Source: Bdellovibrionales bacterium Ga0074139
GTDB lineage: Bacteria; Bdellovibrionota; Bdellovibrionia; Bdellovibrionales; Bdellovibrionaceae
Direction of reading: 5' to 3'
Assembly (NCBI GenBank): GCA_001464795.1
Contig: LNEB01000014.1
Span: forward strand, 248,001 to 312,000
Length of the DNA stretch: 64,000 nucleotides
Below, piece after piece: positions 2,136 to 22,273 of the stretch. The number at the start of each line of letters is the position of its first letter. Positions within the stretch are counted from its first letter, which is position 1. The position numbers and the translations under genes are program-made. Under the pieces are notes generated by a model. The model worked only from the letters and a program-made list of their open reading frames with translations, was not told the origin of the DNA and did no database searches.

Positions 2136-2152
2136 AGCAACCAAAATGCCAA
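2136..2152 (-). promoter_or_regulatory. Sigma-54 (RpoN) promoter of the fliLMN operon
   Basis: Read on the minus strand the bases are TGGCATTTTGGTTGCT. This matches the sigma-54 consensus TGGCACG-N4-TTGCT at both invariant doublets, GG and GC, with the required 10-base spacing. The predicted start is near 2125, giving a leader of about 30 bases before the fliL GTG. A second site with the same spacing precedes the other flagellar operon (53846-53860), which supports both. Confidence 0.8.
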
Positions 2153-3127: not shown

Positions 3128-3853
3128 ATGGCAGGAAAATCAGAAACTTTTATAAAACTTGGACTCGTTTTCTTTATCTCATTACTTTCTTTTGCAATTG
3201 GCACATTGGTCGGAAAAGAATACAGCGATCGACAGTACAAACTTGCACAGCTTGAACCTTCTGAAAATAAGCTTGCAAATACGCGCTCAATCGCAAGCAG
3301 TGAAAAAGAATCCAACAAGCTAAGTGATGAAGAAATCGCAAAATTAGCAGAAGAATTTGTCACTGATGATGCCGTAGAAATTGCAAAAGAAAATAACCCA
3401 AAAGAAGTCCCCGACATTGAAACAGGACTACCTGTTCAAGCGTCTCAAGAGTTTGAAGAAATGAATGATGAGGCACTTGCTGCTGCACAAAAAATTATTG
3501 AAAATAAGCTTCCAACGGCAGCTTCACAAAGGAAGCTAGCAGCTACAGAAACTGAAAAACCAAAAACAACACCACTCACACAAATTATGCCTAAAAATGC
3601 AGCTCAAGAAGATGCGGGCAAATACACTGTACAGGTCGGATCCTACGCAAAAGAAGAAGAAGCGAAAGTCCGAGCTGAGGCCTTGAAATCAAAAGGATAC
3701 ACTGCTTTTTACATTCCTGGAGTTGTTGAAGGAAAAACATTTTACCGCGTGAATGTAGGAACCTACGCTACCTTATCTGATGCAAAAAAAGCTATTGAAA
3801 AGCTTGCTGCTGAAAACAAAGGCGAAAAGGGTTTCATAAAAGAACTTCGCTAG
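3128..3853 (+). CDS. SPOR-domain membrane protein
   Basis: 241 residues. A single N-terminal membrane anchor (about residues 10-28, LGLVFFISLLSFAIGTLVG) is followed by a charged, Glu/Lys/Ala-rich periplasmic linker and a C-terminal SPOR domain (about 165-241, starting KYTVQVGSYAKEEEAKVRAE). SPOR domains bind denuded glycan strands of septal peptidoglycan, so the protein probably localises to division or remodelling sites, like FtsN or DedD. An AGGA ribosome site precedes ATG 3128. It is divergent from the monophosphatase gene with about 30 bases between them, so their promoters must overlap. Confidence 0.9.
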   Translation: MAGKSETFIKLGLVFFISLLSFAIGTLVGKEYSDRQYKLAQLEPSENKLANTRSIASSEKESNKLSDEEIAKLAEEFVTDDAVEIAKENNPKEVPDIETGLPVQASQEFEEMNDEALAAAQKIIENKLPTAASQRKLAATETEKPKTTPLTQIMPKNAAQEDAGKYTVQVGSYAKEEEAKVRAEALKSKGYTAFYIPGVVEGKTFYRVNVGTYATLSDAKKAIEKLAAENKGEKGFIKELR

Positions 3854-17357: not shown

Positions 17358-17439
17358 ATTGATATCGTGATCAATTGAAGAAGATCTCACAATTAAATTA
17401 TCTTTAGGTTCGTCCTTTATCGACTTTTATCGAGTCAGC

Positions 17440-17455
17440 TGGCCCCTTGATTGCT
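17440..17455 (+). promoter_or_regulatory. Sigma-54-like promoter of the radical SAM-peptide-kinase operon
   Basis: TGGCCCCTTGATTGCT matches TGGCACG-N4-TTGCT with both invariant doublets (GG and GC) at the correct 10-base spacing and the full TTGCT element. The predicted start is near 17466, giving a leader of about 24 bases before ATG 17490. The operon itself encodes an NtrC-family activator (20786-22273), so autoregulation is plausible. Upstream, TTTATCGA occurs twice (about 17416-17432) and may be part of an activator site. Confidence 0.6.
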
Positions 17456-17489: not shown

Positions 17490-18821
17490 ATGAACCATGA
17501 ACACAACACAGAAATTCGTCGTCATCGACATGTTGTAGCCTTTAAAAAAGGTCTTGGTCCCGCATACGCCTATCATTCTAAAAACTTGCAAGTGGCTGAA
17601 ATTTCAGATGATCTTTGGAATCAAATGCCTGTGGCAGATTTTTCCAAGGCTGAAGAGTTGGAAATTTCTGACAGCCAAATTTCTCAAGAATCCCAGGATC
17701 TGAAGTCCTGGAGCCAGTTTGAAACTCCTGTCGAATCTTTGGTTAAACCTGAAAATAAGTTCAATTTGACACTGAATATTACTCAGCTTTGCAATCTGCA
17801 TTGCCACTACTGTGCTGCCGGTGGAGATGGCACTTACGGGGATCCTGTTCGACAAATTTCTGTGGAAAAAACACTTCCCCAAATAGCGATGCTGATGAAA
17901 AGGCTCAAACCTGGGGGACAGTTTAATATCACATTCCTTGGCGGAGAACCCTTAATGTACCCACTGGCCATTCAAGCCATCGGTCTTTTTACGAAAAAAT
18001 TAGCCGCCGAAAATAATATAAAAGCAGAGTTTCAAATTATCACAAATGCAACTTTGATTAACGATTCTGTTCTTGATGTGATTAGCCCCATTCGCCCAAC
18101 GATCACAGTCAGCATCGATGGCCCACCTGAAATTAATGATCGCCAGCGCCCTCAAAAAAATGGCCTCAAATCATCTGACCAAGCTATTCAAGGCCTACAA
18201 AGTCTTTTGAAAAGAAAAGATCAATTTGGCCCCTTATTATTGCATGCAGTTTTCAATAAAAACCATACCGATGTGGAAAAAGTGTGGGAATACTTCCAAC
18301 AGTTTCCTGTTGATAAAATGGAATTCACTTTTGACGTGACTGAAAAATCTGAAGAGGCCAACAGGTCTTTTACGGAAAGCCTCAAGAAAGCCGCAGCTCT
18401 TGCCTTTGCTAAAGGACAAGAAAAAGAACTTCGTAGAATTCAATTTTTTGATATTTATTTTTCTCAGCTGGACTCTCAAACTCGCCGCGAAAATCATTGC
18501 GGCAGTGGAAAGTCCTTACTCAGCCTCGACTCGCGAAATCAAATTTATCAGTGTCCATTGGAAGTTTCATTTAAGACTCGAGTTGTAGGAATCGATGACC
18601 AAATCAATTGGGGTCTACTAAAACCTCTCGAGAAGCCCTTGATTGAACTGAATAACTGCCAGTCCTGCTGGGCCAAGCACCTATGCGGCGGAGGCTGCAT
18701 GTTTAACCATGAAAGTTTAACAGGCGACAAGCACACGAAACATCCAACGTATTGCTTCCGAACTCGGCACTTGCTGAGTGAGGTCATTATGTATTATAAA
18801 CAAACTAGGGAATTGGAGTAA
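17490..18821 (+). CDS. Radical SAM/SPASM peptide-maturase-like enzyme
   Basis: 443 residues. The radical SAM core begins with CNLHCHYC (C101, C105, C108), then FLGGEPL, TNATLI and SIDGPPE. The C-terminal SPASM domain has C337, C355, C390, C393, C399, C403 and C422, the typical CxxCx5Cx3C arrangement for two extra iron-sulfur clusters. Residues 1-95 may be a substrate-recognition domain. SPASM enzymes of this size modify ribosomal peptides (thioether or carbon-carbon links) or act as sulfatase-maturing enzymes; no sulfatase is nearby, while a 35-residue peptide gene follows after 3 bases. Its specific family is not one I can name. Confidence 0.9.
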   Translation: MNHEHNTEIRRHRHVVAFKKGLGPAYAYHSKNLQVAEISDDLWNQMPVADFSKAEELEISDSQISQESQDLKSWSQFETPVESLVKPENKFNLTLNITQLCNLHCHYCAAGGDGTYGDPVRQISVEKTLPQIAMLMKRLKPGGQFNITFLGGEPLMYPLAIQAIGLFTKKLAAENNIKAEFQIITNATLINDSVLDVISPIRPTITVSIDGPPEINDRQRPQKNGLKSSDQAIQGLQSLLKRKDQFGPLLLHAVFNKNHTDVEKVWEYFQQFPVDKMEFTFDVTEKSEEANRSFTESLKKAAALAFAKGQEKELRRIQFFDIYFSQLDSQTRRENHCGSGKSLLSLDSRNQIYQCPLEVSFKTRVVGIDDQINWGLLKPLEKPLIELNNCQSCWAKHLCGGGCMFNHESLTGDKHTKHPTYCFRTRHLLSEVIMYYKQTRELE

Positions 18822-18824
18822 TTC

Positions 18825-18932
18825 ATGAAAAGTTCTACCACTCAAAAAACAAAAAGCATTAAAATTGTAAAAGCATTACCTGCGACTACAACGACAGTGC
18901 AAGGTCCCCGTGACTGCTTCCCCTTAGGCTAA
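18825..18932 (+). CDS. 35-residue candidate substrate peptide of the radical SAM enzyme
   Basis: This short frame has ATG 18825, a GGAG ribosome site inside the end of the radical SAM gene, and a TAA 4 bases before the kinase start. The peptide has a Lys/Thr/Ser-rich leader-like half (MKSSTTQKTKSIKIV) and a core-like half KALPATTTTVQGPRDCFPLG with four threonines and a single cysteine near the C-terminus. A thioether link from Cys31 to a threonine or other residue would fit known SPASM chemistry, but this is inference. There is no signal peptide and no Gly-Gly or similar processing site apart from the terminal Gly. It matches no precursor family that I know. Confidence 0.65.
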   Translation: MKSSTTQKTKSIKIVKALPATTTTVQGPRDCFPLG

Positions 18933-18936
18933 GCCT

Positions 18937-20763
18937 TTGCTTCCCAATAGAAAAGTCTCATTTCGTTTCTGGATTTTAAAAATTATTTTTGCAGTCACTG
19001 CCTCTGTTTTGCTTAATTATTTTGAGCTCGAATCCACAGAATCCTGGCTCTATGACCTCAGAGTCAGACTCACCCCGACCACTGAAACATCCAACATCTT
19101 TGAACTTGTTTTAATCAACGAAGATTCCTTCAAGGAAAAACAAAAATTTCCTTCCATCTCGGATTTACAAAAAAATCTTGAAAAAATACTTCTCGCTGAA
19201 CCTCGAGCCATCATGATTACATTTTCGCCTCAAGACTTAGAAGGTCTGGATAGTGAAAAATTGCAATTTGCTAGACGCTTTGAAGGCGAAAAAAATCTTT
19301 ATTTCACTCGTGATGAGTTAAGACCCGAAAATGAATTTCAAACTTCTTTTTTTCCTGCTCCCTTTGAGAACTTACCCGTGGGCTTTGCACCCAAAACCCA
19401 CGACCGCAAATCATTTGCCAAAGATGGAGTCACCAGACGTTTAATTTTAAGCTACCAAGGTCAAGCCATGTTGACGAAACAATTGGCCATGCTGTGGAAC
19501 CCAGAGCTCGTGAATGAATCCAAATTAAATGGTGTCTTTGATTTCTTCGGAGCCAACCAAACCTATGTGGATTTTAGACCTTCAGGTTCCTATTCAAAAA
19601 ATAACTTTCATGAAGTAGTCAATTTGCCGATTGAAAAGTGGACCAATAAAATTGTGATTTTGGGCTTTGATGCGCAAAGAAAATTTGATGACTACATCAT
19701 GACGCCGCATTCACGGCAAGCCACCTATATGCATCTTCCTGAAATGCAAGCCAACATGATTGATACTTTGGTACAAGGCACTTGGCCTGTTCGCTTTTCA
19801 GAAACACTTAACTTTCTACTGACGTTTTTAATTTCACTGATCACCATTCATGGTGTTTTAGTTCTTAGGCCATCACAGGGTCTTATTTTACTTGGTGGCT
19901 TAGTTTTAGGTTATACTTTGTGGACCTGGGGTCTGTTTGCAGCATTTCGCTGGTGGTGGCCTCTGGCTCACCCCTTGATCGCAGTATTTTTATGTTATTA
20001 CTTCTTCATTCCCTACCGCTTGATTATGGAAAATCGAAAAAGTTGGGAGTACTATCAAAAAAATCAACTTTTGAAACAAGTTGAAGAGCTAAAAACCAAT
20101 TTCATTTCTATGATGTCACACGATTTGAAAACTCCCATTGCTCGCATCCAGGGCATGACTGATGTAATTCAGAAAGATGCAAGCCCTATCAGTCACCAAC
20201 AACGTGAAGCTTTAGACACAATCAAAAATTCCAGTGATGAATTGCTGAAGTTTATCAATTCCATTCTGAATTACGCTAAAATGCAGTCCGATGGGGTTGA
20301 GCTTCATAAGACTGCAAAGGATATCAATCAAATCATTGAAGATGTTTTAACCAAACATGAATTCTTAGCAAGAGTGAAAAAAATCAAATTTCACGCAGAG
20401 CTAGAACCTTTATTTCCCATTCATGTAGATCCTGATTTAGTTCGGCAGATTCTCTCTAATTTGATTGAAAATGCGATTAAATACAGTCCTGAAGAAACTC
20501 AAATTAAAATTAATTCTCAGGAAAAAGATGGTTTTGTTTGTATCCAAGTTCAAGATCATGGAGGCGGCATTCCTGAGGATGAACTTCCTCATGTGTTCTC
20601 TCAGTTCTTTAGAAGTAAAAATGCCAAAATCTCGCCGATCAAAGGATCGGGTTTGGGGCTGCATTTAGCTAAATATTTCACTGAACTTCATGGTGGAGAG
20701 CTGTTTGTAGAATCTACATATGGTAAAGGCAGCACCTTTACGGTAAAACTCCCTAGTCAGTAA
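18937..20763 (+). CDS. CHASE2-domain sensor histidine kinase
   Basis: 608 residues from TTG 18937, 4 bases after the peptide stop. One membrane helix (about 9-27) precedes a periplasmic CHASE2 domain (about 30-285, opening with ESWLYDLRVRL), then three membrane helices (about 286-352), a HisKA dimerisation domain with phospho-acceptor His395 in SHDLKTPIARIQG, and an HATPase domain with N box NLIENAIKYSPE, DHGGGIPE and GSGLGLHLAKYF. CHASE2 is an extracytoplasmic sensor domain of unknown ligands. Being sandwiched between the peptide and the response regulator suggests it senses the modified peptide or its effect. Confidence 0.92.
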   Translation: MLPNRKVSFRFWILKIIFAVTASVLLNYFELESTESWLYDLRVRLTPTTETSNIFELVLINEDSFKEKQKFPSISDLQKNLEKILLAEPRAIMITFSPQDLEGLDSEKLQFARRFEGEKNLYFTRDELRPENEFQTSFFPAPFENLPVGFAPKTHDRKSFAKDGVTRRLILSYQGQAMLTKQLAMLWNPELVNESKLNGVFDFFGANQTYVDFRPSGSYSKNNFHEVVNLPIEKWTNKIVILGFDAQRKFDDYIMTPHSRQATYMHLPEMQANMIDTLVQGTWPVRFSETLNFLLTFLISLITIHGVLVLRPSQGLILLGGLVLGYTLWTWGLFAAFRWWWPLAHPLIAVFLCYYFFIPYRLIMENRKSWEYYQKNQLLKQVEELKTNFISMMSHDLKTPIARIQGMTDVIQKDASPISHQQREALDTIKNSSDELLKFINSILNYAKMQSDGVELHKTAKDINQIIEDVLTKHEFLARVKKIKFHAELEPLFPIHVDPDLVRQILSNLIENAIKYSPEETQIKINSQEKDGFVCIQVQDHGGGIPEDELPHVFSQFFRSKNAKISPIKGSGLGLHLAKYFTELHGGELFVESTYGKGSTFTVKLPSQ

Positions 20764-20785: not shown

Positions 20786-22273
20786 ATGCTTAAAGTTCTT
20801 GTCGTTGATGATGATGCAGGATTAAGACTTTCGCTCAAAACAGCACTTTCTGCCAATCCCAGATTACATATTGAAGAAGCTTTCGACGGTATCAACGCCT
20901 TAGAAAAATACGAAGCCTCAGAGCCTAAGTTTGACATCGTGATTCTTGATGTGGATATGCCTCGCTTGAATGGATTAGAAACTTTAAAACGTTTAAAAGA
21001 AAAAGATCCAGGTCTTATAGTTTTGATGCTGACAGCTCATGCTACAGTTCAAGATGCAGTTTTAGCAGTTAAAGATGGGGCCTATAACTTTTTATCTAAA
21101 CCTGTTGCTGGTGAAGAACTTTTGCATCTTTTAGACAAAGCAGTGGAAGCTCACCGCCTGATTTCTTCCATTGCAGCCAGTTCTCCAGTTCTTCTAGAAG
21201 AAGGTCGAAAGATCATCGGTTCTAATTCTCAGATGCAGAAGGTTTTTAACATTATCCACAAGCTAGCAAAAGTGGAAACTCCAGTGCTGATCCGTGGAGC
21301 TTCAGGAACTGGAAAAGAACTAGTCGCCCGTGCCATCCATTTTAACTCAGCTCGAAAAGATGGAAAGTTTGTTGCTATCAACTGTTCTGCTATTCCAGAG
21401 AACTTATTTGAAAGTGAACTTTTTGGTCACGAAAAGGGATCTTTCACCGGTGCCGATCAAAGAAAAATTGGAAAATTTCAATACGCTGAAGGCGGAACTT
21501 TATTTTTAGATGAAATCGGCGATATGCCAGCCCTGATGCAGGTTAAAATTTTACGTGTCTTACAAGAAAAAATGTTTACACCTGTTGGATCCAACCGCGA
21601 ATTTCCAACTAACGTAAGAATTATTGCAGCCACTAACCGTCCACTGGAAGAAATGATTTTAAAAAATACTTTCCGTGAAGATTTATTTTATCGTTTAAAC
21701 GTGGTGCCTATATTTTTACCTTCTTTGTGCGAGCGTAAAGATGACATCGACCGCATGGTACAAAACTTTATTAAAAAGTTTAACGAGACACACAAAAAAT
21801 CCATTCGTGGAATCAGTCCCGATGCCATGAATATTCTAAAAAAGCACAACTGGCCTGGAAATATTCGAGAGCTTGAAAACGTCATAGAACATTCATTTGT
21901 TCTTGAATCCACTCATGTGATTTCACCTGCCTCACTTCCAGAATCACTTTTGGAAACTGTCGGTGTTGATCTTGTTACTTTGCCTCCGCAACAGGAAACC
22001 ACTGGATCCATTCGTTTTCAGTCTTTAGATGCGGACATCGAAGAATCAGAGGATTTAAGTGTGGATGATTTAGAAGATCCTATTGAAGTGGATCCCAATC
22101 AGACCTTTGATTTCAATGCGCAAAAAGAAGCTTTTGAAAAAGAATTTATTTTAAAAGCATTGAAAGCTTTTAAAGGGCGCATCAATCAAACAGCTTTACA
22201 CGCCAATATTCCTAAAAAGACACTTTTAAGGAAGATCGAAAAGTACGGCATTGTTGCCAAAGATTTTCAATAA
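20786..22273 (+). CDS. NtrC-family sigma-54 response regulator
   Basis: 495 residues. The receiver domain has DDD near the start and phospho-acceptor Asp55 (ILDVDMP). The AAA+ domain has Walker A GASGTGKE, GSFTGA (218-223; a Ser variant of the GAFTGA loop that contacts sigma-54), Walker B LFLDEIGD and the R-finger region. A Fis-type helix-turn-helix is at the end (ALKAFKGRINQTALHANIPKKTLLRKIEKYG), preceded by an acidic linker (about 415-445). A GGGGGA ribosome site precedes ATG 20786. It is the partner of the CHASE2 kinase and the likely activator of sigma-54 promoters such as the one at 17440. Confidence 0.95.
   Translation: MLKVLVVDDDAGLRLSLKTALSANPRLHIEEAFDGINALEKYEASEPKFDIVILDVDMPRLNGLETLKRLKEKDPGLIVLMLTAHATVQDAVLAVKDGAYNFLSKPVAGEELLHLLDKAVEAHRLISSIAASSPVLLEEGRKIIGSNSQMQKVFNIIHKLAKVETPVLIRGASGTGKELVARAIHFNSARKDGKFVAINCSAIPENLFESELFGHEKGSFTGADQRKIGKFQYAEGGTLFLDEIGDMPALMQVKILRVLQEKMFTPVGSNREFPTNVRIIAATNRPLEEMILKNTFREDLFYRLNVVPIFLPSLCERKDDIDRMVQNFIKKFNETHKKSIRGISPDAMNILKKHNWPGNIRELENVIEHSFVLESTHVISPASLPESLLETVGVDLVTLPPQQETTGSIRFQSLDADIEESEDLSVDDLEDPIEVDPNQTFDFNAQKEAFEKEFILKALKAFKGRINQTALHANIPKKTLLRKIEKYGIVAKDFQ

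Follow-up and report, generated by a model that had tools for sequence, protein, structure and literature searches.

A conserved short gene between a radical SAM/SPASM maturase and a sigma-54-linked sensor kinase probably encodes the precursor of an undescribed RiPP family in Bdellovibrionales

Several described radical SAM/SPASM systems offer points of comparison for the locus presented here, and the nearest with a solved structure is CteA/CteB, which makes the SCIFF thioether. CteB binds its leader by strand addition and has an open Aux I site, whereas Aux I of anaerobic sulfatase maturases (anSMEs) is fully ligated by Cys255, Cys261, Cys276 and Cys330 (PMC6231123). Other relatives are PapA/PapB, ranthipeptides with thioethers from Cys to Asp or Glu, and the maturases of Nif11-like peptides described by the NCBIfam model TIGR04064. 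Streptide/Rgg and SCIFF-ranthipeptide quorum sensing provide precedent for radical SAM RiPPs that are tied to signalling (PMC8326336). For Bdellovibrio, no description of a radical SAM RiPP was found in the open full-text literature.

Our analysis concerns a 64,000-nucleotide stretch of contig LNEB01000014.1 from Bdellovibrionales bacterium Ga0074139, termed the window. On its + strand, a gene for a 443-residue radical SAM/SPASM maturase (17490 to 18821) is separated by a slot of 115 nt (18822 to 18936) from a gene for a 608-residue CHASE2-HisKA-HATPase sensor kinase (18937 to 20763), which has hydrophobic helices at residues 7 to 25 and three between 291 and 364. A 495-residue NtrC-type sigma-54-dependent response regulator follows (20786 to 22273, + strand), assigned by domain matches and conserved gene order. 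The original prediction placed in the slot a missed peptide gene that fills it and has its own ribosome site inside the maturase gene, and the sequence bears this out. The frame (18825 to 18932, + strand) opens with an ATG at 18825, 3 bases past the maturase TAA, and its own TAA (18930 to 18932) is followed, after 4 bases, by the kinase TTG at 18937. A putative GGAG ribosome site (18815 to 18818, + strand), 6 nt ahead of the ATG, falls within the final codons of the maturase, and a Shine-Dalgarno-like sequence precedes the peptide start in most relatives. The predicted 35-residue product, MKSSTTQKTKSIKIVKALPATTTTVQGPRDCFPLG, has one Cys, C31. Its leader contains SIKIVKA (18855 to 18875, + strand), and its C-terminal core is GPRDCFPLG (18903 to 18929, + strand), which includes Cys31 (codon 18915 to 18917) and Pro33.

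Reading frames of 35 codons are common by chance, and it could be supposed that this one merely occupies a tight intergenic slot. Conservation makes such an explanation scarcely credible. A search for the maturase covered 144 genomes of the class, with duplicates merged before loci were counted, and detected it in 81 of them, in the GTDB families coded f1, f10 and part of f4. Family names rest on named records, mostly of Bdellovibrionaceae/Pseudobdellovibrionaceae, and the nearest named relative of the window is a Pseudobdellovibrionaceae MAG. All 72 readable maturase loci of the order Bdellovibrionales, that is, those with downstream DNA present, carry in this slot a short, homologous peptide; these loci come from Bdellovibrionaceae/Pseudobdellovibrionaceae and two further GTDB families. 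Apparent absences of the peptide in genomes G069 and G010 were rejected because their contigs end inside the kinase. The slot frames were initially chosen by motif rules, and a held-out profile served as an independent check: in a five-fold scheme, an HMM built from four fifths of the loci was used to rank each slot frame against all six-frame small ORFs. The slot frame ranks first in 72 of 72 held-out loci. The window's own peptide has an E-value of 9.4e-7; the weakest loci reach only about 0.1 to 2, and these are carried by rank rather than by E-value.

The codon pattern also speaks against a chance ORF. Synonymous change exceeds nonsynonymous change in most close pairs of peptide genes, and several moderately close pairs have pS of 0.33 to 0.63 versus pN of 0.03 to 0.16 (for example, 0.63 and 0.07 for loci L118 and L116). 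On this comparison, the peptide codons are under purifying selection. In the relatives, the frame is not broken and its codons are conserved, the two points on which the prediction could have failed. Judged from conservation in sequence, 18825 to 18932 is a genuine protein-coding gene tied to the maturase. As a separate observation, three close genomes (L121:9461-9574, L122:8917-9030 and L123:9875-9988) have zero synonymous differences in the peptide gene, and the adjacent maturase has a pS of 0.22 to 0.30; sites are few, and this hints at an extra DNA or RNA constraint.

The homologues are 27 to 78 residues long and share a layout of N-terminal (H)IKK(V/I)xPxK, a variable linker and a C-terminal GxG-C-x-P-x. 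Cys31 is the sole invariant column in 62 aligned peptides, and Pro33 is nearly so (at least 90%). The consensus about the Cys is G-x-G-C-I-P-[VI]-[RG]; Pro stands at +2 in 68 of 73 peptides, and the +3 and +4 positions are mostly V/I/T/L and G/R/K. All but two of the 73 peptides have one Cys, the two exceptions having two. Thus, of the residues that were expected to be conserved, the Cys, the Pro at +2 and the Gly at -3 and -1 are, together with an IKK leader motif, but the threonines are not. The peptide is almost always single copy and always directly follows the maturase; at locus L043, two tandem precursor genes (3473 to 3562 and 3591 to 3704) lie behind one maturase. No NCBIfam family matched the peptides, and a comparison of 62 of them with Pfam gave at most one chance-level match.

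The maturase has a predicted N-terminal RRE-like fold, a CNLHCHYC core and a seven-Cys SPASM domain. Pfam Radical_SAM is matched, and in 60 aligned rows the radical SAM triad (C101, C105 and C108) and the SPASM cysteines (C337, C355, C390, C393, C399, C403 and C422) are invariant. Among the 25 NCBIfam models listed, no curated cut-off is reached, so the chemistry has to be inferred from distant relatives, which among the matches listed include PapB, the SCIFF maturase and QhpD. The best score listed is 150.7 bits, to TIGR04064 over a near full-length alignment, but the cut-off of that model is 518.7 and the peptides fit no family in the same collection. PapB is second-best of those listed, with 147.7 bits against a cut-off of 340 (NF047865), and the peptide differs from PapA in having a single Cys followed by x-P-x rather than a repeated or spaced Cys/Asp(Glu) motif. 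The SCIFF-maturase model gives 120 bits against 425.

By structure, the likeness is greatest to CteB, which is both the best PDB sequence match (E = 3.5e-46) and the best fold match (5WGG, TM 0.74/0.80); both proteins have a radical SAM core, the maturase apparently resembles CteB in a SPASM domain that lacks the fourth Aux I Cys, and the N-terminal RRE of CteB would have its counterpart in the RRE-like fold. An AlphaFold model was made of the natural in-frame read-through of maturase and peptide, with the TAA as Gln and 60 alignment rows; rows of peptide only, which MAFFT had misplaced, were left out. The model has a mean pLDDT of 91 and a pTM of 0.91, with only seven naturally fused relatives in the alignment lending thin support to the peptide part. 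The only strand predicted in the peptide is I12-I14, with a block pLDDT of 87, within the window's counterpart of the (H)IKKVKPxK motif; a second fusion, from L107, places a strand on the matching I-K-K (block pLDDT 86). An RRE test gave predicted N-terminal strands and helices, a leader strand and a CteB-like fold, and its output does not name the partner of that strand. By analogy with CteA, which CteB binds as an added strand, we infer that the partner is the RRE-like domain of the maturase. The tail that carries the Cys has no ordered structure in the models (pLDDT below 50), and no docking of the Cys is visible. The original reading, of a precursor gene next to a SPASM maturase with a leader rich in Lys and one Cys in its core, is supported: co-occurrence with the maturase and the predicted leader strand favour the peptide as a maturase substrate. 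Differences from CteA/CteB are that SCIFF has six Cys in forty-five residues where the present peptide has one, that the host belongs to another phylum, and that a dedicated sigma-54 two-component system is present.

The C-x-P core also resembles the target motif of anSMEs, whose structures are the second-best fold family of the maturase and share a related SPASM fold. The maturase might therefore oxidise the conserved Cys to formylglycine, as anSMEs do at C-x-P-x-R, and 18 of 73 peptides have C-x-P-x-R. However, most peptides, that of the window included, lack the +4 Arg, and the putative substrate is a peptide of 27 to 78 residues rather than a sulfatase. Asp277 is the catalytic base of anSMEs; the HMM alignment places Pro at this position, after the second Aux I Cys of the maturase, and finds no Cys at the position of Cys261. 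Aux I thus appears not to be fully ligated, and the open site is the condition found in CteB (PMC6231123). A CteB-like Aux I that lacks the extra anSME Cys favours a thioether, which by this analogy is the likely chemistry, and makes formylglycine formation unlikely. No conserved crosslink acceptor is evident in the peptide.

Another use of such a peptide would be its consumption for a small redox cofactor, in the style of PQQ or mycofactocin, with the kinase-regulator pair serving only to control expression. The conserved C-terminal piece is very short (the chain ends 4 residues past the Cys in 34 of 73 peptides), no transporter or protease is encoded within the unit, and inheritance of the peptide unit is vertical and near-universal within the Bdellovibrio family, all but the missing protease being features that a cofactor pathway might show. 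Against this, the tail has no conserved aromatic residue across the 73 peptides, and no conserved protease or dehydrogenase partner appears within the neighbour set tested. We regard a cofactor role as improbable.

Gene order offers a further alternative, in which the short frame would serve to regulate or couple translation of the kinase, its product being no substrate of the maturase. The peptide stop lies within 10 nt of the kinase start in 28 of 73 loci, with a 4-nt overlap in four, and in the window the kinase gene starts with TTG and lacks a clear ribosome site. What makes this account quite improbable is that the Cys-x-Pro tail and IKK leader are conserved as protein, with an excess of synonymous change, and that the peptide tracks the maturase. 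The kinase is broader in distribution, occurring in 118 of 144 class genomes, and 20 kinase loci from genomes with no maturase match all retain kinase and regulator (60 to 66% identical). At these 20 loci there is no maturase, and a search upstream of their kinases gave no family peptide; therefore, the peptide belongs to the maturase and not to the kinase. Whole-genome matches to the peptide profile adjoin the maturase, and in 369 genomes of the phylum none lies outside the order at an E-value of 0.001. An apparent orphan peptide in genome G026 was rejected as antisense to another gene.

The order maturase-peptide-kinase-regulator is conserved across Bdellovibrionales, and distances among the three proteins other than the peptide are correlated (Mantel r of 0.83 to 0.87). 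About seven gains or losses are required to explain the distribution of the peptide-bearing unit on a tree of the regulator, so gain or loss was repeated. One high-quality family member, G008, lacks the unit: at its kinase locus (L148), maturase and peptide are absent, and an unrelated Gly/Pro/Asn-rich 42-residue ORF, MKKMNQENQAPSFAQSWNGNGKPPFNLDPNGNGGGGTKPPFT, occupies the slot, 200 to 71 nt before the kinase start. Many genomes have the kinase-regulator pair but no peptide; the RiPP is thus optional to the circuit, and in those genomes the pair cannot depend on the peptide as an obligatory ligand.

A sigma-54 (-24/-12) promoter, CTGGCCCCTTGATTGCT, is predicted at 17439 to 17455 (+ strand), 34 nt before the maturase ATG, and relatives have an equivalent site; this promoter and the order-wide conservation of the four-gene unit go beyond the original prediction. 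With weights hand-set from the textbook consensus after strict matches had been seen, a score of at least 9.5 is reached upstream of the maturase in 67 of 76 loci, versus 2 of 75 control windows of equal length that lie further upstream. The strict pattern occurs in 30 of 76 loci versus 2.8% of random 415-nt windows. The exact pattern has 2 matches in the window, where 1.08 are expected, which is not significant by itself; the promoter call carries weight because its position is conserved among relatives. The second exact match lies at 2136 to 2152 (- strand), where about one is expected by chance. With a wider window ahead of the kinase, 9 of the 20 maturase-less kinase loci also reach the score, versus 2 of 20 control stretches. 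In Bdellovibrio, a strongly conserved block, TGAAATAGTTTCCTTTTGCCCC, precedes the sigma-54 site by about 100 nt (L121:7985-8175; also L123, L118, L036 and others); it is a possible activator site and is not recognisable in the window.

The unit thus has both parts of a sigma-54 two-component system, with a -24/-12 promoter upstream and an NtrC-type activator inside, which implies autoregulation. Spacing and promoter suggest that the four genes form one operon, and the circuit seems to regulate itself and to be separable from the peptide. In the HD100 strain, equating the kinase with Bd3393/RagB was considered and not adopted: Bd3395 is flgE, the kinase of the window type is located some genes before that, and another RR/HK pair is nearby.

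In the mechanism that we propose, the leader would add a strand to the RRE-like domain of the maturase, as CteA does on CteB, and so deliver the peptide tail to the radical/SPASM centre, where, by family resemblance, a thioether would form from Cys31 to a near residue. All four genes, from the maturase to the NtrC-type activator, would be transcribed from the sigma-54 promoter as an autoregulated operon, the CHASE2 kinase would thereby set peptide output, and the mature peptide may be read by the extracytoplasmic CHASE2 domain of the kinase. That the ORF encodes, by this whole mechanism, the precursor of an undescribed radical SAM RiPP family of the order Bdellovibrionales has in our estimate a probability of roughly 0.7. 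Gene order and promoter make a signalling role for the peptide plausible; unlike the Streptide/Rgg and SCIFF-ranthipeptide systems, the partner here would be a CHASE2 kinase in the membrane, encoded in one unit with a sigma-54 activator. The fuller proposal is tentative and rather doubtful, namely that a single-Cys, C-x-P-tailed RiPP is the endogenous signal for a dedicated CHASE2 kinase, which acts through an NtrC-type activator to turn on the sigma-54 operon that encodes the kinase itself. If true, it would describe a RiPP-based autoinducer circuit.

The family would add to the radical SAM RiPPs a precursor type that is without a Pfam or NCBIfam model and near-universal in the Bdellovibrio family. 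With a short precursor and an adjoining enzyme, its chemistry should be accessible by co-expression, and the tie to a sigma-54 kinase circuit offers a concrete entry into the signalling of predatory bacteria. It appears that these predators and related bacteria produce a modified peptide, so far undescribed, that is wired to a sensor-kinase switch of its own.
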